Below, in pieces: positions 22,046 to 35,123 of a stretch of 64,000 nt of DNA. How positions within the stretch are numbered: position 1 is the first letter of the stretch; each line of letters opens with the position of its first letter. The DNA comes from Modestobacter sp. VKM Ac-2984 (GTDB lineage: Bacteria > Actinomycetota > Actinomycetes > Mycobacteriales > Geodermatophilaceae). The notes under the pieces are model-generated. The model made no database searches. It saw only the letters and a list, made by a program, of their open reading frames with translations, and was not told the origin of the DNA. Location of the stretch: the NCBI RefSeq assembly GCF_026967985.1, contig NZ_JAPVBJ010000001.1, positions 1-64,000 on the forward strand, written 5' to 3'. The position numbers were made by a program, and so were the translations under genes.

Positions 22046-22061
22046 GTCACACGGATGGAAC
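22046..22061 (+). promoter_or_regulatory. GlnR/NnaR-type half-box pair upstream of nnaR
   Basis: GTCAC (22046-22050) is followed after six bases by GGAAC (22057-22061), matching the GTnAC-n6-GAAAC pattern of actinobacterial GlnR operators with one mismatch. It is 23-38 bases before the regulator gene start. Only one pair is seen here, so this is weaker evidence than at the cynS and narK promoters. Confidence 0.4.
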
Positions 22062-22083: not shown

Positions 22084-23235
22084 GTGACCGACAGCCAGCT
22101 CGACCACCCCGTGGCCAGCCCTGCCGGAGAGCCCCCGGTGCCGGACCTGCTGCCACTGGCCGGCTACACCGTCGCGGTGACCGCGGCCCGCCGCAGCGAG
22201 GAGCTGGGCGCGCTGCTGGACCGCCGGGGTGCCCGGGTGCTCTACGCCCCGGCGATCCGGATCGTCCCGCTGTCCGACGACGCCGACCTGGTCGCGGCCA
22301 CCCGGGAGGTGCTCGCCGCACCGGTCGACCTGGTGGTGGCCACCACCGGGGTCGGGTTCCGCGGCTGGCTGGAGGCCGCCGAGGCCTGGGACCTGCCGCT
22401 GCGCGAGCACCTGGCCACCGCCCGGGTGCTGGCCCGGGGACCGAAGGCCCGCGGCGCGATCCGCGGGGCGGGCCTGGTCGACGCCTGGTCCCCGGAGTCG
22501 GAGAGCTCGGCGGAGGTGCTGTCGCACCTGCTGTCCGGGGCGGAGGGCCCGCTGCCCGGCCGCCGGATCGCCGTCCAGCTGCACGGCGACCCGCTGCCCG
22601 AGCTCGTCGCCGGGCTGGTGCGGGCCGGTGCCGAGGTGATCAAGGTGCCGGTCTACCGCTGGGTGTTGCCCGAGGACACCGCTCCGCTGCGCCGGCTGGT
22701 CGCGGTGATCGCCGCGCGCGCCGTCGACGCGGTCACCTTCACCAGCGCACCGGCCGCCGCCAGCCTGCTGCAGGTCGCCGAGGAGGAGGGCGTGTACTCC
22801 GGCGTCCTCAGTGCCCTCACCGACGCGGTGCTCCCGGTCGCGGTCGGCCCGGTCACCGCTGCGCCGCTCGAGGCCGCCGGCGTCCGGTCCGTCCAGCCCG
22901 AGAGGGCCCGGCTCGGTGCGCTGGCCCGCTCGGTCGTCGCCGAGCTGCCGGCCCGGCACCCGGTGCTGCACTCCGGTCCGCACAGCCTCCAGGTCCGTGG
23001 GCACGCCGTCGTCCTGGACGGCCGGCTCGTGGAGCTGGCGCCCGGACCGATGGCGGTGCTGCGCGCCCTGGCCCGGCGTCCCGGCGTCGTCGTCTCCCGC
23101 GCCGACCTGCTCAGCGAGCTCTCCGGTGGCGGCGACGCGCACGCCGTGGAGATGGCCGTGACCCGGCTGCGCGCCGCCCTGGGCGCGCCCGTGGTGCAGA
23201 CCGTGGTCAAGCGCGGCTACCGCCTCGCCGTCTGA
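22084..23235 (+). CDS. nnaR: NnaR-type nitrogen regulator: HemD-like domain plus winged-helix DNA-binding domain
   Basis: The protein has 383 residues from GTG 22084. Residues about 25-280 match the uroporphyrinogen-III synthase (HemD) fold: AGYTVAVTAARRSEEL, TGVGF, and FTSAPAAASL near 225. Residues about 300-383 form an OmpR-type winged helix ending with VKRGYRLAV. This two-domain architecture is that of NnaR, the activator of nitrate/nitrite assimilation that works with GlnR in mycobacteria and streptomycetes. Its place beside cynS, an FNT channel, narK and the nasA-nirBD operon fits that role. Whether the HemD part still makes uroporphyrinogen III for NirB siroheme or only senses is unknown. 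Confidence 0.88.
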   Translation: MTDSQLDHPVASPAGEPPVPDLLPLAGYTVAVTAARRSEELGALLDRRGARVLYAPAIRIVPLSDDADLVAATREVLAAPVDLVVATTGVGFRGWLEAAEAWDLPLREHLATARVLARGPKARGAIRGAGLVDAWSPESESSAEVLSHLLSGAEGPLPGRRIAVQLHGDPLPELVAGLVRAGAEVIKVPVYRWVLPEDTAPLRRLVAVIAARAVDAVTFTSAPAAASLLQVAEEEGVYSGVLSALTDAVLPVAVGPVTAAPLEAAGVRSVQPERARLGALARSVVAELPARHPVLHSGPHSLQVRGHAVVLDGRLVELAPGPMAVLRALARRPGVVVSRADLLSELSGGGDAHAVEMAVTRLRAALGAPVVQTVVKRGYRLAV

Positions 23236-23307: not shown

Positions 23308-23362
23308 CTGACCGGCGGGGTCGAACGCGTGTCCTGGCCCTCACACCGGTGCCACCGGGCCG

Positions 23363-23427
23363 GTGCGACCGTTGTTCCGTGCGGGTCACGTCGCCGCGTC
23401 TGTCCCGAAACGGCTCCTCCCTAGCGT
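23363..23427 (+). promoter_or_regulatory. cynS promoter with 11-bp-periodic GlnR/NnaR-type operator
   Basis: Pentamers at exact 11-bp steps: GTGCG (23363), GTTCC (23374), GTCAC (23385), GCGTC (23396), GAAAC (23407), followed by a -10-like TAGCGT at 23422. The narK promoter at 25673-25737 shows the same elements at identical distances. GTnAC-n6-GAAAC repeats with 11-bp period are the pattern of GlnR boxes, so binding by GlnR and/or NnaR is likely. Confidence 0.7.
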
Positions 23428-23475
23428 TCGCGTTGCCCGGCCGGACGACCCGGCCGACCGCACCCGAGGAGCTCG

Positions 23476-23925
23476 ATGACCCCCGTCCTCCCGAAGTCCG
23501 ACGCCGCCGCCCTGGTGGTCGCCGCCCGCATCAGGCGTGGCCTGACCTGGGCCCAGCTCGCCGAGGAGATCGGTGCGCCGGTCGTCTGGACCACCGCCGC
23601 CCTGCTCGGCCAGCACCCGATGACCCCGGAGCAGGCACGGTGCGCGTGCCTGCTGCTGGGGCTGGACGAGAGCGTCGAGGAGAGCCTGCGCCTGCAGCCC
23701 TCCCGCGGCGCCGACCCGGCCACCCTGACCGACCCCACGGTCTACCGCTTCCACGAGGCGCTGTCGGTCTACGGGCCGGCGCTCAAGGAGCTGATCCACG
23801 AGGAGTTCGGCGACGGGATCATGAGCGCGATCAACTTCCGCGTCGACATCGCCCGCCGGTCCGACCCGGACGGCGACCGGGTCGTCGTCACCTTCGACGG
23901 GAAGTTCCTGGACTACCGGTGGTGA
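23476..23925 (+). CDS. cynS: Cyanate hydratase (cyanase)
   Basis: Converts cyanate and bicarbonate to ammonia and CO2 (through carbamate), detoxifying cyanate and supplying nitrogen. At 149 residues it is the normal length. The N-terminal helical DNA-binding-like domain (about 1-75) leads into the catalytic domain, where YRFHE and GIMSAINF hold the three active-site residues: R91, E94 and S117, with the same spacing as R96, E99 and S122 of E. coli CynS. ATG 23476 is preceded by GAGGAG. It is followed by an FNT channel gene rather than the carbonic anhydrase (cynT) usual in proteobacteria, and driven by a nitrogen-type promoter. Confidence 0.95.
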   Translation: MTPVLPKSDAAALVVAARIRRGLTWAQLAEEIGAPVVWTTAALLGQHPMTPEQARCACLLLGLDESVEESLRLQPSRGADPATLTDPTVYRFHEALSVYGPALKELIHEEFGDGIMSAINFRVDIARRSDPDGDRVVVTFDGKFLDYRW

Positions 23926-24001
23926 CCGGAGTCCCTGCACCGCCACGCGCCGCCACGCCCGCGTGCGCCGCCACCCCTTCCGCGCAGCCGAGGAGCACCT
24001 C

Positions 24002-24976
24002 ATGTCCTACCTGAGCCCCAAGGACTTCACCACCAAGATGATCGACGCGGGTGAGGCGAAGGTCTTCATGGCCACCCGCGACACGTTGATCCGGGCGTTC
24101 ATGGCCGGGGCCATCCTGGCGCTGGCCGCGGCCTTCGCGGTCACGGTCACCGTGCAGACCGGCCAGCCCATCGTCGGGGCGCTGCTCTTCCCGGTCGGCT
24201 TCTGCCTGCTCTACCTGCTCGGCTTCGACCTGCTGACCGGGGTCTTCACGCTGGTGCCGCTGGCGCTGTTCGACAAGCGGCCGGGCGTGACCGTGCGCGG
24301 CATGCTGCGGAACTGGGGACTGGTCTTCCTCGGCAACTTCGGCGGGGCGATCACCATCGCCGTGATCATGGCGGTGATCTTCACCTACGGCTTCGCCATG
24401 CCGCCGAGCGAGGTGGGCCAGGCGATCGGCTCCATCGGGGAGGGCCGGACGGTCGGGTACGCCGAGTTCGGCGCCGCCGGGATGCTCACGCTGTTCCTGC
24501 GCGCGGTGCTGTGCAACTGGATGGTCTCCACCGGGGTCGTCGCCGCGATGATGTCGACGTCGGTGACCGGCAAGGTCGTGGCCATGTGGATGCCGATCCT
24601 GGTCTTCTTCTACATGGGCTTCGAGCACTCGATCGTCAACATGTTCCTGTTCCCCTCCGGCCTGATGCTGGGCGGCGACTTCTCCGTCTCGGACTACCTG
24701 ATCTGGAACGAGATCCCGACCGTGCTGGGCAACCTGGTGGGCGGGGTGACCTTCGTCGGGCTGACCCTCTACGCCACCCACGCCCGCACCGCGGCGCCCC
24801 GCAACGCCGCCGTCCTCCCGGTGCTCGCCGTGCCGGCCGACACCACGGCCGCCGACACCACCGCCGCCGACACCACGACCGCCGACACCACGACCGCCGA
24901 CACCACGACCGCCGACACCACGACCGCCGACACCACGACCGTGGTGGTCGACACCACCACGGTCGGCGCCCGCTGA
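24002..24976 (+). CDS. Formate/nitrite transporter (FNT) family channel with repetitive C-terminal tail
   Basis: A pentameric-type anion channel of the FocA/NirC family, 324 residues from ATG 24002 (GAGGAG upstream). Six membrane helices are visible between about 35 and 265, with the FNT segments NWGLVFLGNFGG and RAVLCNWMV plus FEHSIVNMF. FNT proteins pass small monovalent anions such as nitrite or formate. The C-terminus (about 279-313) is seven tandem copies of a five-residue ADTT(T/A) unit, unusual for the family. It follows cynS by about 75 bases and is probably in the same operon, so cyanate or nitrite uptake are both plausible. Confidence 0.88.
   Translation: MSYLSPKDFTTKMIDAGEAKVFMATRDTLIRAFMAGAILALAAAFAVTVTVQTGQPIVGALLFPVGFCLLYLLGFDLLTGVFTLVPLALFDKRPGVTVRGMLRNWGLVFLGNFGGAITIAVIMAVIFTYGFAMPPSEVGQAIGSIGEGRTVGYAEFGAAGMLTLFLRAVLCNWMVSTGVVAAMMSTSVTGKVVAMWMPILVFFYMGFEHSIVNMFLFPSGLMLGGDFSVSDYLIWNEIPTVLGNLVGGVTFVGLTLYATHARTAAPRNAAVLPVLAVPADTTAADTTAADTTTADTTTADTTTADTTTADTTTVVVDTTTVGAR
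24836..24940 (+). repeat. Seven 15-bp tandem repeats inside the FNT gene
   Basis: The unit GCCGACACCACGACC is repeated seven times without spacers; units 3-7 are identical, and units 1 and 2 differ by one or two bases near the 3' end. Each unit encodes Ala-Asp-Thr-Thr-Thr (or Ala), so gain or loss of units keeps the frame and changes the tail length only. Confidence 0.95.
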
Positions 24977-25008
24977 CCCCTGACCGGCGCCGGCGGCGCG
25001 CACGGCAC

Positions 25009-25050
25009 GACGACGAGGCGGCCTCTCTCCGGAGGGGCCGCCTCGTCGTC
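25009..25050. terminator. Bidirectional terminator between FNT and DinB genes
   Basis: GACGACGAGGCGGCC and GGCCGCCTCGTCGTC form a perfect 15-bp stem with a 12-base loop, placed between two convergent genes. A typical GC-clamped actinobacterial terminator without U-tract. Confidence 0.8.
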
Positions 25051-25067
25051 GGTCCGCCGGGCCGGCG

Positions 25068-25601
25068 TCAGCGCCAGCGCCAGCGGTAGAGGTCACGGAG
25101 CAAGGCGATCTCCGCACCGTGGTGAGCCAGCTCGTCGGTGGCGTGCACCAGCAGGTCGGCCCAGCTGGAGTCGGAGTACGGCCCCCAGGCCGGCCCGAGG
25201 GGCCGCCACATCCCCTCCTCCCCCAGGTCGGTCATCGCCGTGCGGAACGCGGTCGCGGCGATGTCCAGGTCCCGCAACGCCGAGGCCGCGTCGCCGTGCC
25301 ACTCCCGGCCGGTCAGCGCCAGCTGCCGCCCGGCCGGCGTCTGGGCGAGGTAGTCGGCGAAGCAGCCCGAGGCCAGGTGCCACAGCCGCCAGGCGATCGT
25401 GGTGACCGGCGCCGGCTCCGGGGCCGGGTGGGCCCAGTCCGCGGTCCAGCTGCCGTCGTCCTCGCGGCGCACCGACCAGGCGCCGCTCAGCGGCTCGTCG
25501 AGGTACTCCGCGTCCTCCAGCCCGGCCAGCCGCAGGTCCAGTCGTCCGCGTGCCTCGTCCCAGCCGCGGAGCAGCACGGGCAGCACGAGTCGGTCCGTCA
25601 T
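25068..25601 (-). CDS. DinB-family protein
   Basis: A 177-residue protein with the DinB/YfiT-like four-helix bundle pattern. A WRLWHLASGCFADY segment at about 70-85 contains the first metal-ligand His, and HATDELAHHGAEI at about 152-164 contains the other two. Members are metal-binding helical proteins, some of them thiol-dependent (mycothiol or bacillithiol) transferases. The substrate is unknown. It is convergent with the FNT gene and divergent from narK, whose promoter region it shares. Confidence 0.85.
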   Translation of the reverse strand: MTDRLVLPVLLRGWDEARGRLDLRLAGLEDAEYLDEPLSGAWSVRREDDGSWTADWAHPAPEPAPVTTIAWRLWHLASGCFADYLAQTPAGRQLALTGREWHGDAASALRDLDIAATAFRTAMTDLGEEGMWRPLGPAWGPYSDSSWADLLVHATDELAHHGAEIALLRDLYRWRWR

Positions 25602-25672
25602 GCCCCTGGACGGTAGGACCGACGGCCCCGCGCCGGGCGGTTCCCGGGCCTCACAGCGTCGTCCGGCTGCGC

Positions 25673-25737
25673 GTGCGGGGCATGTACCGCACCGGTCACG
25701 CCGTCGCGGTCGGGTGGAAACGCCCGGTTCCTAGCGT
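25673..25737 (+). promoter_or_regulatory. narK promoter with 11-bp-periodic GlnR/NnaR-type operator
   Basis: Pentamers GTGCG (25673), GTACC (25684), GTCAC (25695), GCGGT (25706) and GAAAC (25717) stand at exact 11-bp intervals, with TAGCGT as -10 at 25732. The distance from GTCAC to TAGCGT is 37 bp, identical to the cynS promoter. This points to common control of nitrate uptake and cyanate use by GlnR and/or NnaR. Confidence 0.7.
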
Positions 25738-25801: not shown

Positions 25802-27238
25802 ATGACAGAGACCCAGCTCCACCGCCCGGGCGCAGCCGCTGCCCCGACCCCTCCCGGCGGCGCCACCGCGGCCCGGGGTGGCAGTCGGTGGATCGAGCAC
25901 TACGCCCCGGAGGACCCGGCGTTCTGGGCCTCACCGCAGGGGAAGCCGGTCGCCCGCCGCAACCTGGTGTGGTCGGTGCTCGCGGAGAACATCGGGTTCA
26001 GCGTCTGGCAGATGTTCAGCGTCGCCACCGCCGTCCTCGCCTCGATCGGCTACGGCTTCACCAGCGACCAGCTCTTCTGGCTGGTCGCCACCGCCGGCCT
26101 GGTGGGCGCGATCATGCGGGTGCCCTACACCTTCATGCCGGCGCTGCTCGGTGGGCGCAACTGGACGGTCGTCAGCGCGGCGCTGCTGCTGGTGCCGGTG
26201 ACCATGCTCGTGGTTGCCGCGACCACCGGGCAGCCCTACTGGTTCTGGGTGCTGACCGCGATCACCTGCGGCTTCGGCGGCGGCAACTTCGCCTCCTCGA
26301 TGGCCAACATCTCCTTCTTCTACCCGGACAAGGAGAAGGGCTTCGCCCTCGGCCTCAACGCCGCCGGCGGCAACATCGGCGTGGCGATCATCCAGCTCGT
26401 CGGCCCGCTGGCCGTCACCGCCGGCACCATCGCGGTGATCGGCGGGAGCACCGGGACGACGGCCGGCGGCGACGCCCGGTACGTGCAGAACGTGGCGCTG
26501 ATCTGGGTGCCGTTCATCGTCCTGGCGGTCGTCGGCGCCTGGTTCGGGATGAACAACCTGTCCGGGGCGAAGGCCAACATCGCCGACCAGGCCGCGATCG
26601 CCCGGCGCAAGCAGACCTGGATCATGTCCTTCCTCTACATCGGCGCGTTCGGCTCCTTCATCGGGTTCTCCGGGGCGTTCCCCCTGGTGCTGGCCAACGA
26701 GTTCGCCGCCGACACCTACCGCTACGCCTTCCTCGGGCCGCTGGTCGGCTCGCTGTCCCGGCCCTTCGGTGGGTGGCTCGCCGACCGGGTGGGCGGTGCA
26801 AAGGTCACGATCGTCACCTTCATCGGCCAGGCCGTGGCGATCGGGGCCGCCATCGCTGCGCTGGGGGCCGGCAGCTTCGGCGGGTTCCTGGCCAGCTTCC
26901 TGGTGCTGTTCGCCGTGGTCGGGATGACCAACGGGTCGACCTACCGGATGATCCCGATCATCTACCGGGCCGAGGCCGCCGCGGCGCGGTCGGCCGACTC
27001 CCCGGCGCAGGTGCTCTACCGGGCGCGCCGGGACACCGCCGCGGCCGTCGGCATCATCTCCGCGGTCGGTGCGCTGGGGGCGGTGTTCATCCCGCGGATC
27101 GTGTCGGAGTCCTACCTCGCCACCGGCAGCGTGGTCACCGCCCTGGGCGCCTTCTGCGGCTTCTACATCGCCTGCGTCGCGGTGACCTGGTTCGTCTACC
27201 TGCGCCGCGGCACCCTGATGCAGCAGGCCGGCGTCTGA
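25802..27238 (+). CDS. narK: NarK-type nitrate/nitrite transporter (MFS, NNP family)
   Basis: Imports nitrate (proton symport) or exchanges nitrate and nitrite across the membrane. The 478-residue protein has about twelve membrane segments from residue 55 on. The nitrate-porter signatures are present: GFGGGNFASSMANISFF near 160 and LSRPFGGWLADRVGG near 318. The N-terminal 40 residues are polar and Ala/Pro-rich. ATG 25802 was chosen as the first Met before conserved sequence; only a weak AGGGA precedes it. The shared promoter with cynS and the nearby nasA-nirBD operon argue for assimilatory nitrate import. Confidence 0.92.
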   Translation: MTETQLHRPGAAAAPTPPGGATAARGGSRWIEHYAPEDPAFWASPQGKPVARRNLVWSVLAENIGFSVWQMFSVATAVLASIGYGFTSDQLFWLVATAGLVGAIMRVPYTFMPALLGGRNWTVVSAALLLVPVTMLVVAATTGQPYWFWVLTAITCGFGGGNFASSMANISFFYPDKEKGFALGLNAAGGNIGVAIIQLVGPLAVTAGTIAVIGGSTGTTAGGDARYVQNVALIWVPFIVLAVVGAWFGMNNLSGAKANIADQAAIARRKQTWIMSFLYIGAFGSFIGFSGAFPLVLANEFAADTYRYAFLGPLVGSLSRPFGGWLADRVGGAKVTIVTFIGQAVAIGAAIAALGAGSFGGFLASFLVLFAVVGMTNGSTYRMIPIIYRAEAAAARSADSPAQVLYRARRDTAAAVGIISAVGALGAVFIPRIVSESYLATGSVVTALGAFCGFYIACVAVTWFVYLRRGTLMQQAGV

Positions 27239-29870: not shown

Positions 29871-32407
29871 CGGACCGGCACCGTCGGCAGGTCGACCAGC
29901 GGCAGCGCGGTGCGGAACTGGCCGGGGGTGGCCGGCTGCGCCCCGTCCTGGCCCCAGGGGTCGGTGTAGGCGTCGATCGAGCGCTGGAGGCCGGCGTCCA
30001 GCGCGGCGAGGACCTCCGCGCTGCCGTCCAGCACCACCGCCCGGACCTGCTCCAGCCCGACGCGGGGCACGAAGTCGTAGGTGCGCTCCAGCCAGTTGGC
30101 GTTCTCCCGGTAGTACTGGACGAACCGGCCGGCCAACTGCATCACCGCCGCGGGTGAGTCGACGGTGGCCAGCAGGTCGCCCTTGCGCACGCTGGCCCCG
30201 GCCGCACCGCCGACGTACACCTCCCACCTGCCGTTGCCGACGGCGACCACGCCGACGTCCTTGACGTAGGCCTCGGCGCAGTTCCGCGGGCAGCCGACCA
30301 CGGCCATCTTGATCTTGGCCGGGCTCTCGATGCCCTGGAACCGGGTCTCCAGGTCGATGCCCAGCTGGGTGGAGTCGCCGAGCCCGAACCGGCAGAAGTC
30401 GCTGCCGACGCAGGTCTTCACCGTGCGCATGCTCTTGCCGTAGGCGTAGCCCGAGGGCATGCCCAGGTCGGCCCACATGCCGGGCAGGTCCTCCTTGCGG
30501 ACGCCGAGCAGGTCGATCCGCTGACCGCCGGTGACCTTGATCATCGGGACCTCGTACTTCTCCGCGACGTCGGCGATCGTGCGCAGCTGGGCCGCCGTCG
30601 TCACCCCGCCCTTCATCTGCGGGACCACGCTGAACGTGCCGTCGCGCTGGATGTTGGCGTGCACCCGGTCGTTGATGAACTTGGCGTCGTTCTCCTGCTC
30701 GTACGCAGCACCCCAGACCAGCCGCAGCAGCGAGGTGAGCCCCATCTTCGACGTGGCGTCCTCCTCCCCGCCCGGGGCCAGGGCGGCGAAGACGGCGGAG
30801 ACGCTGCGCAGCTGCTGGTCCCGGATGGCGGCGATCAGCTCGGGCTTGGCCAGCGGGATGCCCGGCACGTACCAGCTCGCCGAGGCGTCCTCGGTGACGT
30901 CGCCGTCGGCGGCCCACTCCACGACCTGCTTCACCAGCAGCTTGCACGAGCCGCAGCCCTTGCCGGCGCGGGTGGCGTCCATGCAGCCGCCGACGCTGGT
31001 GGTCCCGGCCTTGACGGTGTCGACCAGCGCCTGCTTGGTCACCCCGTTGCAGTTGCAGACCTGCGAGTCGCCCGGCAGCTCGGCGACGCCCACCTCCGCG
31101 GCGCCGTCGGAGAGGTCGACCAGAAGCCGGATCCGCTCGGCGGGCAGCGGGGTGCCCCGGTCGAAGGCCTGGGTCAGGAAGGCGACCTTGCGGGTGTCGC
31201 CGAGCAGGGTCGCGCCGACCAGCTTGTCGTCCCGGACGACGACCGACAGGTGCACCCCGCGCCGCGGCTCGGAGATGACCAGGAACTCGTCGGTGTCCCG
31301 CTCGGGCCGGTTGACGCCCATCGTGGCGACGTCGACCCCGGCGACCTTGAGCTTCGTCGCCGTCCGGGAGCCGTGGTACTCCGCCTCGGGATCGACGCCG
31401 GTGAGCAGGTCGGCGAGCACCCGGGCCTGCTCCCACACCGGGGCGACCAGCCCGTACAGCTCGCCGCGGTGCTGGGCGCACTCCCCGACCGCGTAGACGT
31501 CGGGGTCGTCGGTGCGCAGCTGGTCGTCGACGACGATGCCGCGCTCGACCTCCAGGCCGCTGAGCAGCGCGACCTCGGTGACCGGCCGGATGCCGGCGGC
31601 GATGACCAGCATGTCGGCGTCGATCGCCCGGCCGTCGGCCAGCACGATGCCGCGCACCCGGTCCGGGCCGATCGCCTCGGTGGTGCGGGTGGCCAGGTGG
31701 ACGACGATGCCCAGCGCCTCGACGCTGTGCTTCAGGATCGCTCCGCCGTCGGGGTCCAGCTGCTGGTTCATCAGGTGGGTGCCGGCGTGCACGACCTCGA
31801 CGGCCAGCCCGTGCCCCTGCAGGGCGCGGGCGGCCTCCAGGCCGAGCAGCCCGCCGCCGACGACGACGGCCCGCTCGTGTTCGGCGGCGGCCGCCAGCAT
31901 CGCCCGGGTGTCGTCGATGGTGCGGAAGCCGAAGACGCCGGGGAGCAGCTGCTCCTCGGCGGTGTACAGGCCGGTCATCGGCGGGACGAACGAGCGGCTG
32001 CCGGTGGCCAGCACCAGCTGGTCGTAGGCCGTCGTCGTGCCGTCGGCGGCGTAGACGATCTTGGCGTGGGTGTCGATCCGGTCGACCCGCACCCCGGCGC
32101 GCAGCGTCACGCCCTGGTCGGCGTACCAGTCGTGGCTGTTGAGGACGATGTCGTCCTCGTGCTCCTCCCCGGCCAGGACGTGGGACAGCATGATCCGGTT
32201 GTAGTTGCCGTGCGGCTCCTCCCCGAAGACGGTGATGGCGAACTGCTCGCCGCCGCCGCGTTCGAGCACCTCCTCGACCACCCGCGCCCCGGCCATGCCG
32301 TTGCCGACCACGACCAGCCGCTGCCGCGTGTCGGTCCCGTCGGCGTCGTCCATGGCGAAGTGCAGGGTGCTCACGCCTGCCGGGCGCCCACCCAGGACCG
32401 CCGTCAT
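29867..32407 (-). CDS. nirB: Assimilatory nitrite reductase large subunit (NAD(P)H)
   Basis: Reduces nitrite to ammonia with six electrons from NAD(P)H. The 846-residue protein has an N-terminal FAD/NAD(P) pyridine-nucleotide oxidoreductase (about 30-330, VVVGNGMAG and VVVGGGLLGLEAA). A BFD-like [2Fe-2S] domain follows (CNCNGVTK ... GKGCGSCK), then ferredoxin-like halves and the sirohaem/[4Fe-4S] site TCVGSDFCRFG ... GCPRNCAEA. ATG 32407 overlaps the stop of the small upstream gene as ATGA. The sirohaem requirement links it to the HemD-like domain of the nearby NnaR protein. Confidence 0.97.
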   Translation of the reverse strand: MTAVLGGRPAGVSTLHFAMDDADGTDTRQRLVVVGNGMAGARVVEEVLERGGGEQFAITVFGEEPHGNYNRIMLSHVLAGEEHEDDIVLNSHDWYADQGVTLRAGVRVDRIDTHAKIVYAADGTTTAYDQLVLATGSRSFVPPMTGLYTAEEQLLPGVFGFRTIDDTRAMLAAAAEHERAVVVGGGLLGLEAARALQGHGLAVEVVHAGTHLMNQQLDPDGGAILKHSVEALGIVVHLATRTTEAIGPDRVRGIVLADGRAIDADMLVIAAGIRPVTEVALLSGLEVERGIVVDDQLRTDDPDVYAVGECAQHRGELYGLVAPVWEQARVLADLLTGVDPEAEYHGSRTATKLKVAGVDVATMGVNRPERDTDEFLVISEPRRGVHLSVVVRDDKLVGATLLGDTRKVAFLTQAFDRGTPLPAERIRLLVDLSDGAAEVGVAELPGDSQVCNCNGVTKQALVDTVKAGTTSVGGCMDATRAGKGCGSCKLLVKQVVEWAADGDVTEDASASWYVPGIPLAKPELIAAIRDQQLRSVSAVFAALAPGGEEDATSKMGLTSLLRLVWGAAYEQENDAKFINDRVHANIQRDGTFSVVPQMKGGVTTAAQLRTIADVAEKYEVPMIKVTGGQRIDLLGVRKEDLPGMWADLGMPSGYAYGKSMRTVKTCVGSDFCRFGLGDSTQLGIDLETRFQGIESPAKIKMAVVGCPRNCAEAYVKDVGVVAVGNGRWEVYVGGAAGASVRKGDLLATVDSPAAVMQLAGRFVQYYRENANWLERTYDFVPRVGLEQVRAVVLDGSAEVLAALDAGLQRSIDAYTDPWGQDGAQPATPGQFRTALPLVDLPTVPVR

Positions 32408-32754
32408 CAGACCTCCACCAGGCCCAGGTCGAGCACCAGGTCGCCGGTGACGCCCACCGGTGCGGCGGCGTGCAGCTCGACCACGGTGCCGCCGTCGAGG
32501 TCCTCGACCACCCGCAGCGGCACGTGGCAGTCGCCCTTGGCGCCGATCGGGAACCAGCGCATCGGCTGGCCGTCGCGCACCAGCAGCACGTAGACGAGCT
32601 CGCCGGTGGAGTTGCCGCCGCGGAAGTAGAGCGCCTGGGCGCTCTTGCCCTCGGGGACCTGGTAGCGCAGGGCGGGGTCCAGCGGGCCGGGTTTGCCCAG
32701 GCCCTCGCCGGTGATCGGGTAGACGCCGTGCAGGAAGCGCGGGGTGCTCTTCAC
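32407..32754 (-). CDS. Small conserved protein X of the nas-nir operon, possibly also fused to NasA
   Basis: A 115-residue protein from GTG 32754, preceded by GGAGGAGG with 9-base spacing. It starts with STPRFLHGVYPITGEGLG, contains YFRGGNSTGELVYVLLVRDG and ends with LVLDLGLVEV, a beta-rich soluble protein. There are no cysteine motifs, so it is not a NirD-type Rieske protein. I believe similar proteins occur beside nasA in other actinobacteria, but I cannot name a function. No stop codon separates it from nasA upstream: the nasA frame reads straight through a Pro-rich stretch into it. It overlaps nirB by ATGA. Confidence 0.75.
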   Translation of the reverse strand: MKSTPRFLHGVYPITGEGLGKPGPLDPALRYQVPEGKSAQALYFRGGNSTGELVYVLLVRDGQPMRWFPIGAKGDCHVPLRVVEDLDGGTVVELHAAAPVGVTGDLVLDLGLVEV

Positions 32755-35064
32755 GCTGGTGGTCCTCCTCCGGGATGGGGCGTGCGGGGTGTGGGCCGTC
32801 GGTCGGGCGTGTGGGCCGGGCTGCGGCTGGGTGGCCGGCTCCGGTGGTGGGATGCGCTCCTCGGGCTCGCCGACCCGGGAGACTGCGACCGCGCAGGCCT
32901 TGAAGGCCGGCATCCGGCTCGTCGGGTCCAGGGCCGGGTCGGTGAGGGCGTTGGCGCTGGAGCCGCCGCCCCAGTGGAAGGGGGCGAAGACGACGTCCGG
33001 GCGGATCGTGTCGGTGATCAGCGCGTGGAAGCGGGCCCGGCCGCGCCGGGTGGCGAGCTCCACGACGTCGTCCTGACCGATGCCGAGGGTGCGGGCCAGG
33101 TCGGGGTGGAGCTCTGCCCGCGGGGTGGGGGCGACCAGCTGCAGGCTGCGGGAACGGCGGGTCTGGGTGCCCGACTGGTACTGGGCGAGCACCCGGCCGG
33201 TGGTGAGCACGTAGGGGTACTCGGCGTCGGGGCGCTCGTGGGCGTCGACCTGCTCGACCCGCCAGAACCGGGCCCGGCCGTCGGGCGTGGCGAACCGGTC
33301 GGTGAACAGCCGCGGCGTGCCGGGGTGGTCTCGATCGGGAACGGGCCAGAAGAGGCCCTGCTCGTCGTCGATCCGCCGGTAGGTGATGCCTGAGTAGTCC
33401 GCCGGGCCGCCGGCGCTGGCCCGGCCGAGCTCGGTGAAGACGGTCTCGGCGTCCCCGCTGAAGCCAGACACCCCCAGCCGGCCGGCCAGCTCGGCGAGCA
33501 GCTGCAGGTCGTCGCGGACGCCGTCGGGCGGGTCCATCGCGCGGCGGCGGCGGATCACCCGGCCCTCCAGGTTGGTCATCGTCCCTTCCTCCTCCGCCCA
33601 CATGGCGCTGGGCAGCACCACGTCGGCGAGCTCGGCGGTCTCGGAGAGGAAGAAGTCGCTGACCAGGAGGAAGTCCAGGTCGCGCAGCCGGCTGATCACC
33701 CGCCGGGCGTCGGGGGCGGAGACGGCGACGTTGGAGGCCATCACCAGCAGCGTGCGGACCCCGCCTTCGGTGCCGAGGGCGTCGAGCAGCTCGAAGGCGC
33801 TGCGGCCGGGCCCGGGGAGGTCGTCGGGGTCGACGCCCCAGACGGCGGCGACGTGCTGGCGTGCCTGCGGATCGGTGATCTTCCGGTAGCCGGGCAGCTG
33901 GTCGGCCTTCTGCCCGTGCTCGCGGCCGCCCTGCCCGTTGCCCTGCCCGGTGACGGTGCCCCAGCCGCTGCCCTCGCGGCCGGGCAGGCCGAGGGCCAGG
34001 GCGAGGTTGATCCAGGCCTGGGTGGTGTCGACGCCGCTGCGGTGCTGCTCGGCGCCCCGGGCGGTCAGGATGATCGACCGCCGTCCCCGTGCCAGGGCGA
34101 AGACGGTGCGGCGCTGCTGCTCGACCGGCACCCCGGTGAGCCGCTCCACCCGGTCGGGCCAGTACCCGGCGACCCCGGCCCGGACGGCGTCGAAGCCGGT
34201 GGTGCGCGCGGCGACGTAGGCCTCGTCGACCAGCCCCTCGGCGATCGCGATGTGCAGCAGCCCGTTGGCCAGGGCCAGGTCGGTGGCCGGCAGCGGCTGC
34301 AGGTGCAGCGTGGCGTGGCGGGCGGTGTTGGTGCGGCGCGGGTCGACGACGATGTGCTCGGCGCCGCGCGCCCGGCCGGCGTCGAACCACTGCATCGCCG
34401 GGGGCATCGTGTCGGCCGGGTTGCTGCCGACCAGCACGACGACGTCGGCCTCGGCGATGTCGGAGAGCGGGAAGGGCAGCCCGCGGTCGAGCCCGAACGC
34501 CCGGATCGCCGCGCCGGCCGCCGAGGACATGCAGAACCGGCCGTTGTAGTCGATGGCGCTGGTGCGCAGCGCCACCCGGGCGAACTTGCCGAACTGGTAG
34601 GCCTGCTCGTTGGTCAGCCCGCCGCCGCCGAAGCAGCCGACCGCGTCCAGCCCGTGGTCACGCTGTGTCGCCTGGATCGCCGTGACGACCCGGTCGAGAG
34701 CGACCTCCCAGCTGGCCTCGACCAGCGGGCTGGTCCGGTCGGTGGGGTCGGCGCGGACCAGCGGCCGGGTGAGCCGTTCGGGGTGGTCGAGCAGCTCGGG
34801 GGCCGACCAGCCCTTGGAGCACAACCCGCCGCGGTTGGTCGGGAAGTCGGCGGGCACCAGGGTGGCCGGGCGGTCGCCGGCGGTCATCGTGACCCCGCAC
34901 TGCAGCGAGCAGTACGGGCAGTGGGTCGCGGTGGTGCGCGTGCCCCCGCCTGGACCCCGGCCGGGGGTGGGCAACGAGACGGCGGCGGACACATCTGCGA
35001 GCGTGCGGTGGCCCGGTTTCCCGGTGGGGGCGCTCAGGTCAAGCTCGCGTTCCGTCGCCCTCAC
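32407..35064 (-). CDS. nasA: Assimilatory nitrate reductase catalytic subunit NasA (frame continues into protein X)
   Basis: A molybdopterin-guanine-dinucleotide and [4Fe-4S] enzyme that reduces nitrate to nitrite. The cluster ligands are CPYCSLQCGV near residue 49 and GGLCSKGW near 80. Conserved MPT-binding segments include DYNGRFCMSSA, WAEEEGTMTNLEGR and the C-terminal TGRVLAQYQSGTQTRRS. The recognisable enzyme ends around residue 735 (FKACAVAV). The frame then runs through a Pro-rich linker to the stop at 32407, giving 885 residues in all. The start is uncertain: GTG 35064 adds about 45 residues before the cluster, and later GTG codons (VSAAVSLP) are possible. Confidence 0.92.
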   Translation of the reverse strand: MRATERELDLSAPTGKPGHRTLADVSAAVSLPTPGRGPGGGTRTTATHCPYCSLQCGVTMTAGDRPATLVPADFPTNRGGLCSKGWSAPELLDHPERLTRPLVRADPTDRTSPLVEASWEVALDRVVTAIQATQRDHGLDAVGCFGGGGLTNEQAYQFGKFARVALRTSAIDYNGRFCMSSAAGAAIRAFGLDRGLPFPLSDIAEADVVVLVGSNPADTMPPAMQWFDAGRARGAEHIVVDPRRTNTARHATLHLQPLPATDLALANGLLHIAIAEGLVDEAYVAARTTGFDAVRAGVAGYWPDRVERLTGVPVEQQRRTVFALARGRRSIILTARGAEQHRSGVDTTQAWINLALALGLPGREGSGWGTVTGQGNGQGGREHGQKADQLPGYRKITDPQARQHVAAVWGVDPDDLPGPGRSAFELLDALGTEGGVRTLLVMASNVAVSAPDARRVISRLRDLDFLLVSDFFLSETAELADVVLPSAMWAEEEGTMTNLEGRVIRRRRAMDPPDGVRDDLQLLAELAGRLGVSGFSGDAETVFTELGRASAGGPADYSGITYRRIDDEQGLFWPVPDRDHPGTPRLFTDRFATPDGRARFWRVEQVDAHERPDAEYPYVLTTGRVLAQYQSGTQTRRSRSLQLVAPTPRAELHPDLARTLGIGQDDVVELATRRGRARFHALITDTIRPDVVFAPFHWGGGSSANALTDPALDPTSRMPAFKACAVAVSRVGEPEERIPPPEPATQPQPGPHARPTAHTPHAPSRRRTTSVKSTPRFLHGVYPITGEGLGKPGPLDPALRYQVPEGKSAQALYFRGGNSTGELVYVLLVRDGQPMRWFPIGAKGDCHVPLRVVEDLDGGTVVELHAAAPVGVTGDLVLDLGLVEV

Positions 35065-35123
35065 ACCCGACCGCCCAGGACGGTGCGCCGCGCCGCGCGG
35101 CGCCCCGCGCGGCCGGCGTCCGG

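Follow-up and report, generated by a model that had tools for sequence, protein, structure and literature searches.

A 64,000-nucleotide stretch of Modestobacter sp. VKM Ac-2984 (positions 1 to 64,000 of contig NZ_JAPVBJ010000001.1, hereafter the window) carries a cluster of nitrogen genes in which two promoters, those of the cyanase gene cynS and the nitrate/nitrite transporter gene narK, share an element of fixed layout. The genes around this element are given with the family models that identify them.

22084..23235, plus strand: nnaR, a HemD-like domain fused to an OmpR-type winged helix (NCBIfam NF005568, 495 bits)
23476..23925, plus strand: cynS, cyanase (TIGR00673, 146 bits, above cut-off; Pfam PF02560 and PF21291)
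24002..24976, plus strand: fnt, a formate/nitrite-transporter-family (FNT) channel (Pfam PF01226, 216 bits; below the NCBIfam cut-offs)
25802..27238, plus strand: narK, a nitrate/nitrite transporter of the major facilitator superfamily (Pfam MFS_1; NF011608, 384 bits, and TIGR00886, 279 bits, both below cut-offs)

The product of nnaR has the domain pair of an NnaR protein (HEM4, PF02602, at 40-281 and Trans_reg_C, PF00486, at 314-381), and that of cynS is a cyanase by both score and domains. The fnt gene probably shares an operon, and would thus be co-transcribed, with cynS.

A sequence-only reading of this DNA had reported five pentamers (GTGCG, GTnCC, GTCAC, GCGnn and GAAAC) and a TAGCGT hexamer at identical spacing in the two promoters. 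All are present as it described, and each set is preceded by a left arm, CTCACA, that it had overlooked.

23340..23367, plus strand: NnaR-type palindrome of cynS, CTCACA-N16-GGTGCG, the core of the published motif
23374..23411, plus strand: GlnR-type array of cynS, GTTCC-n6-GTCAC-n6-GCGTC-n6-GAAAC, conserved in relatives
23422..23427, plus strand: candidate -10 element of cynS, TAGCGT, at a fixed 10 bp 3' of GAAAC and assigned by position only
23363, 23374, 23385, 23396, 23407 and 23422, plus strand: GTGCG, GTTCC, GTCAC, GCGTC, GAAAC and TAGCGT of cynS, respectively
25650..25677, plus strand: NnaR-type palindrome of narK, CTCACA-N16-CGTGCG
25684..25721, plus strand: GlnR-type array of narK, GTACC-n6-GTCAC-n6-GCGGT-n6-GAAAC
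25732..25737, plus strand: candidate -10 element of narK, TAGCGT, 10 bp 3' of GAAAC
25673, 25684, 25695, 25706, 25717 and 25732, plus strand: GTGCG, GTACC, GTCAC, GCGGT, GAAAC and TAGCGT of narK, respectively

Over the 88 bp from left arm to candidate -10, the promoters are identical in 34 of 35 motif columns and in 20 of the 53 other columns, which bears out the remark that the sequences between the pentamers differ. Among all other places in the window, the narK site matches the cynS 88-mer best, with 54 of 88 positions identical; the 127,826 88-bp positions on both window strands, the cynS site itself among them, have a mean of 26.5 (standard deviation 4.2). Because both promoters lie within one 2.4-kb stretch beside nnaR, their likeness could stem from a recent local duplication without function. 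We consider this very improbable, because the rest of the sequence has diverged while the motifs have not. Orthologues show the same contrast: compared between cynS and narK across genomes, motif columns (chosen from the two window sites) score 0.91 and the rest 0.48, which was equaled in 0 of 20000 column permutations. The arrangement is also found again before nasA and, in weaker form, before a second nirB-like gene far from the cluster, as described below.

The element is also rare. With at most two mismatches, GTNCC-n6-GTCAC-n17-GAAAC has 14 matches in the genome, and its reversed control has 6. The pattern was derived from the cynS and narK sites, which are bound to match it exactly, and the informative part is its rarity elsewhere: the other 12 matches all carry two mismatches. 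Occurrence at random places genome-wide, which the sequence-only reading had named as grounds for abandoning its proposal, is thus not what the genome contains. The pattern CTCACA-N16-nGTGCG has three matches in the 4,557,465-bp genome, at 23340, 25650 and 35060, all inside the nnaR cluster. By itself, the palindrome is too short for a genome-wide test: CTCACM-N16-nGTGNG has 29 genome matches and its reversed control 20, and CTCACA-N16-nGTGNG has 3 matches (control, 2) and occurs at least once in 86 of 112 genomes of the same family, mostly at scattered places.

The sequence-only reading had taken the pentamers as one 11-bp-periodic operator. The 11-bp register holds, but a single operator for one protein is rejected, since GTGCG, the first step, pairs with the CTCACA that begins 23 bp upstream to form the right arm of a palindrome of known type. 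The operator of NnaR in Mycobacterium smegmatis is given as c-t-C-A-C-a/c-(16N)-t/g-G-T-G-a-g, located near GlnR sites (PMC6277429). At cynS and narK, the left arm, the gap and the GTG agree exactly with this core; the two promoters depart from it in having C where the right arm has its fifth-position a, and narK also has C in place of t/g. The remaining steps have the form of a GlnR box, whose unit is gTnAc-n6-GaAAc and whose a-b-a-b arrays have been reviewed (PMC10704036): four tandem half-sites at 11-bp steps, with GTCAC and the final b-site GAAAC strong. If TAGCGT is the -10 element, the GlnR array would span about -59 to -22, and the palindrome would be centered near -80.

A third composite site, also missed by the sequence-only reading, precedes nasA.

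35000..35087, minus strand: third composite site, CGCACC-N16-TGTGAG-n6-GGAAC-n6-TTGAC-n17-GAAAC-n10-CACGCT (R2 scan, E 6e-16, site in the model)
32407..34992, minus strand: nasA, a molybdopterin oxidoreductase of the nitrate-reductase type (Pfam PF00384, PF01568 and PF04879 on 32410-34989)

Read on the minus strand, its palindrome ends in GTGAG and begins with CGCAC. A GTG lies seven bases 3' of the site, and the GTG start of nasA at 34992, which would be leaderless, was picked by position; nirB and then nirD follow in gene order. All 18 nasA loci scored have this layout with small departures (left arm shifted in relative G089; GGAAC as the last step in G076).

Two profiles were used for wider scans: R1, built from 17 cynS and narK sites, and R2, a sequence-only profile of 28 sites from three promoters. 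Their alignments took 17 and 28 of 35 listed sites, and the sites of a divergent narK paralogue and the cynS site of relative G094 were excluded. The genome scan with a site profile, which had been proposed as a check, yielded three strong sites with R2 (narK, nasA and cynS, E <= 3e-15) and nothing else below 0.07; because all three are in the model, what counts is how far the next match falls behind them. R1 finds a weaker fourth site in the genome, likewise overlooked before, at G000:C15:99521-99606 (E 3.5e-4), with the sequence CTCACG-N16-TGTGCG-n6-CTTCC-n6-GTAAC-n17-GAAAC-n10-TAACTT. It precedes a second nirB-like gene on another contig (G000:C15:97000-102500), which has at least 820 codons (the stretch ends inside it) and whose product is 39% identical to the NirB of the cluster. 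Five relatives have weak R1 matches of nearly full length (E 3e-4 to 2e-3), and those of G103 and G090, the two that were read, also precede a nirB-like gene; in the band from 1e-6 to 0.01, the R1 matches examined across the family were those of this C15 group.

Within the family set of 112 genomes, 16 have a cynS match. The gene is linked to nnaR in 10 genomes, all of the window's genus, and all 10 have kept the composite site, nine as found by pattern and one (G094, whose arm gap is one base shorter) as recognized by eye. The site is still present in three genomes in which cynS-fnt runs the other way with respect to nnaR (G091, G100 and G094), and it is present at narK in G105, where narK follows nnaR without cynS between them. 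No composite site was found upstream of cynS in 5 of the 16 genomes with a match (G033, G078, G096, G098 and G099); the G078 match (E 2e-4) is too weak for the gene to be named cynS. In G076, which belongs to another genus and has the order fnt-cynS, the region before fnt matches the consensus at 21 of 38 positions, where the ten other fnt regions match at 17 to 19; this is suggestive only. Across the family, R1 gives 27 matches below 1e-6, of which 17 are in the model; the other 10 lie before narK (8), before cynS (1, in G094) and beside nnaR at a contig end (1, in G019). That run, which used stricter filters, produced no match at 0.01 in 63 of the 112 genomes.

Near nnaR, each relative has narK of one of two types, either 84-98% identical and in tandem or 43-47% identical and on the opposite strand. 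The divergent paralogue has an NnaR-like palindrome in 10 of 11 loci, with a different downstream layout.

The nnaR gene itself is preceded by a different arrangement.

22046..22061, plus strand: GlnR box before nnaR, GTCAC-n6-GGAAC, then n10-CACCAT-n6-GTG (in 17 of 20 nnaR loci examined, window included)

The sequence-only reading had listed this pair, and it lies where expected. The GTG after CACCAT is a possible leaderless start. Scored for the composite site, the nnaR upstream regions do not rise above background (17-20 of 38 positions), and nnaR carries a GlnR box only. Such a box would fit the published control of nnaR by GlnR and a feed-forward arrangement.

A glnR gene is present at G000:C17:52530-52754, and the best solved-structure matches of its product are 8hih (E 2e-86), 8hig, 8hml and 4o1h, named GlnR. 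However, the genome contains 10 more OmpR-type winged-helix matches above the Pfam cut-off besides NnaR and the GlnR candidate, and the GlnR-like boxes might be read mainly by another regulator of this family, such as MtrA or PhoP, with a minor part for GlnR. Antczak et al. describe nearly identical motifs for MtrA and GlnR and report binding of MtrA to the nirB promoter in mycobacteria. This alternative seems improbable to us, because the targets found so far serve nitrogen use, the boxes lie next to NnaR-type sites, and the corresponding M. smegmatis genes depend on GlnR.

We also considered cynS loci outside the family, taking the best 80 of at least 596 stretches, of which 59 were counted as actinobacterial by title. 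An FNT gene neighbors cynS at 23 of these 59 loci, in three arrangements. A strict palindrome, CTCAC-N15..18-GTGMG within 300 bp upstream (expectation, 0.004 per region), is present in six of nine fnt-cynS operons, namely in Dietzia twice, M. kyogaense, Isoptericola, Rhodococcus and Kineococcus; the corresponding P of about 4e-13 is optimistic, as the strict pattern was fixed after a looser look at the same loci, and this counts among the reservations below. The other three fnt-cynS operons have a looser palindrome, read by eye. The only independent repeat of the strict test used 396 genomes of the phylum: 26 have cynS; a single fnt-cynS operon could be tested and carries the strict palindrome, which is missing from all 22 other cynS loci with upstream DNA. 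Eighteen of the 23 genomes with an FNT neighbor were tried for nnaR, which was found in 16. In six genomes, the palindrome at fnt-cynS has the same length as that at narK, nirB or nnaR (27 bp in two Dietzia, 28 bp in four mycobacteria).

In two genomes of the same order, cynS has no adjoining fnt; a canonical GlnR box, GTCAC-n6-GAAAC, precedes it by 57-58 bp, and an NnaR palindrome is absent.

The recurrent pairing with FNT raises the question of which gene the promoter serves. The promoter could be as described while its true target is the FNT nitrite channel, with cynS carried along in the operon and cyanate use incidental. The gene named as NnaR-dependent in M. smegmatis is indeed the FNT gene, MSMEG_5360, whose expression is lower in nnaR and glnR deletions and whose promoter shift needs both proteins (PMC6277429), and one FNT, NitM, is nitrite-specific, its uptake being uninhibited by cyanate (PMC4390861). 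However, cynS is promoter-proximal in the window and in its genus, and the adjacency of FNT and cynS in three arrangements suggests a joint function. We regard FNT as the true target, with cynS merely carried along, as a real but minority possibility. A role of FNT as a cyanate transporter has been proposed from genomic evidence only (PMC10753782).

The C-terminus of the window's FNT is encoded by a 15-bp tandem repeat (GCCGACACCACGACC, 7.1 copies, 96% match) at 24836-24941, which yields a repetitive Ala/Asp/Thr tail outside the Pfam channel domain. A DinB-superfamily gene lies between fnt and narK on the opposite strand (25071-25601) and is not matched at the corresponding position in some relatives, G090 and G101 among them. 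A hairpin between nnaR and cynS is unsupported as a terminator (z -1.2).

The spacing between the two kinds of site can be followed in other families at 24 sites (10 fnt-cynS and 14 narK, nirB or nnaR) that were selected by palindrome and not by register. The latter group came from 30 upstream regions in 10 genomes, which gave 16 palindrome matches; the 14 that begin with CTCAC were used, and two that begin with CGCAC were dropped. Palindromes in this set measure 26 to 28 bp. A half-site, loosely [GT]NNA[CT], stands at +11 from the right arm in 8 of 10 fnt-cynS sites and in 12 of 14 narK/nirB/nnaR sites, with no fit at fnt-cynS of Isoptericola and Rhodococcus. Further half-sites occur at +22 (12 of 14) and +43 (11 of 14) in the narK/nirB/nnaR group and at +44 in 6 of the 10 fnt-cynS sites. 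The +11 counts indicate that the 11-bp observation of the sequence-only reading holds beyond its own genome.

The best explanation, to which we assign a probability of roughly 0.88, is that cynS and narK share a composite promoter of the activator type, dependent on GlnR and bound by both NnaR and GlnR. The sites, their spacing, rarity and conservation, and the presence of both regulator genes, are observed; binding, cooperativity, the direction of regulation and the nitrogen signal are inferred from published work on Streptomyces and Mycobacterium. A single regulon for nitrate import and cyanate use under NnaR and GlnR, as the earlier proposal allowed, is the best in silico reading, and it agrees with published M. 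smegmatis data on FNT and cynS. NnaR would occupy the 28-bp palindrome CTCACA-N16-nGTGCG, centered about 80 bp upstream of the presumed start, and GlnR would occupy the four tandem half-sites (GTnCC, GTCAC, GCGnn and GAAAC), which overlap the -35 region and end 10 bp before the -10 element. The proximal NnaR arm would lie one 11-bp step from the first GlnR half-site, an interval that may place both proteins on one face of the helix, where they could assist each other. Under nitrogen limitation, GlnR would turn on nnaR through the GlnR-only box, and NnaR and GlnR together would then turn on cynS-fnt, narK, nasA and probably the second nirB-like gene.

Several observations weigh against this reading. 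Promoter activity, binding and cooperation of NnaR and GlnR in this organism are judged by analogy. A version of the NnaR motif from M. abscessus has a gap of 13-16 bp and ends in GTGAG (PMC11162112), and this stricter pattern is absent at cynS and narK, which have GTGCG (C for A). The GCGnn step of the array is weak, and GTCAC and GAAAC are separated by 22 bp where 11 is canonical; the pair GTnAC-n6-GAAAC is absent at these two promoters, the pentamers being n17 apart, and at nnaR the second pentamer is GGAAC. In G091 and G100, the GCGnn step is GAGnn, and GTCAC replaces GAAAC. The fourth genome site scores only E 0.19 under R2, and R1 did not list nasA in the family run. Outside the genus, the strict palindrome occurs at 0 of 8 divergent pairs, 0 of 6 cynS-fnt operons (the window's own order) and 0 of 36 lone cynS genes, and R1 on 60 of the 80 foreign loci gave 17 matches up to E 1, none of them below 0.025. 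Isoptericola, with the site, and Arthrobacter gandavensis, without it, are the two tried genomes in which no nnaR match was found. The Rhodococcus palindrome measures 26 bp at fnt-cynS and 28 bp at narK, and in Kineococcus no palindrome was found at the nnaR-side narK, nirB or nnaR.

A bolder version is that NnaR and GlnR form a single uninterrupted complex on the DNA, in which the proximal NnaR arm starts an 11-bp ladder and the GlnR half-sites supply its further rungs, with the register kept across families while the arm gap drifts, and that NnaR thereby commands a broader range of small nitrogen anions (nitrate, nitrite and cyanate), with FNT as the cyanate channel. We offer this tentatively and think it rather less likely to be right than wrong. 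The composite NnaR-GlnR promoter, even in its plain form, would make cyanate use part of the nitrate/nitrite regulon in this genus and in some other actinobacteria, with a precise site. Cyanase as a target narrows what NnaR could be reporting, and the fixed 11-bp register leads directly to a structural prediction of how NnaR and GlnR would cooperate. In mycobacteria, their cooperation is based on two-protein gel shifts and a weak pull-down (PMC6277429).

Published data already connect part of this system. A GlnR chromatin immunoprecipitation site is listed at MSMEG_5360 (PMC3662644). Under nitrogen starvation, MSMEG_5359 (cynS) and MSMEG_5360 are 21-fold and 22-fold higher, respectively, in the wild type than in a glnR deletion (PMC4222082), so that cynS under GlnR already stands in a published table, and MSMEG_5359 is listed with a value of 4.64 in a continuous-culture study of nitrogen limitation (PMC4617892). 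The literature searched, outside of which lay most subscription journals and supplements, yielded no account of cynS being recurrently under NnaR in actinobacteria; the word "cyanate" is absent from the main text of the M. smegmatis NnaR paper. The promoter is of a known kind, and what is added here is the recurrence of cyanase among the targets of NnaR and GlnR, together with the 11-bp register between the sites.

In nitrifiers, as here, cynS adjoins an FNT gene (focA/nirC), but these organisms belong to different phyla, and neither NnaR nor GlnR appears in what that account gives on the pair (PMC10753782). Actinomycete GlnR boxes likewise consist of half-sites in 11-bp steps, the last being GAAAC, whereas here two repeats separate the strong GTCAC from the strong GAAAC, and the step in the middle is weak. 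The NnaR-GlnR promoters of Streptomyces coelicolor and M. smegmatis (narK, nirB and nasA) also have a palindrome near a GlnR site at similar spacing, and nnaR itself is under GlnR in those systems; here, in contrast, cynS and narK have GTGCG as the right arm, and such a promoter has cynS as its first gene. Another parallel is MSMEG_5360/MSMEG_5359, in which fnt and cynS are adjacent by locus number, FNT depends on both NnaR and GlnR, and cynS depends on GlnR. The order there, which we take from the locus numbering, is presumably fnt-cynS, and it is cynS-fnt in the window.

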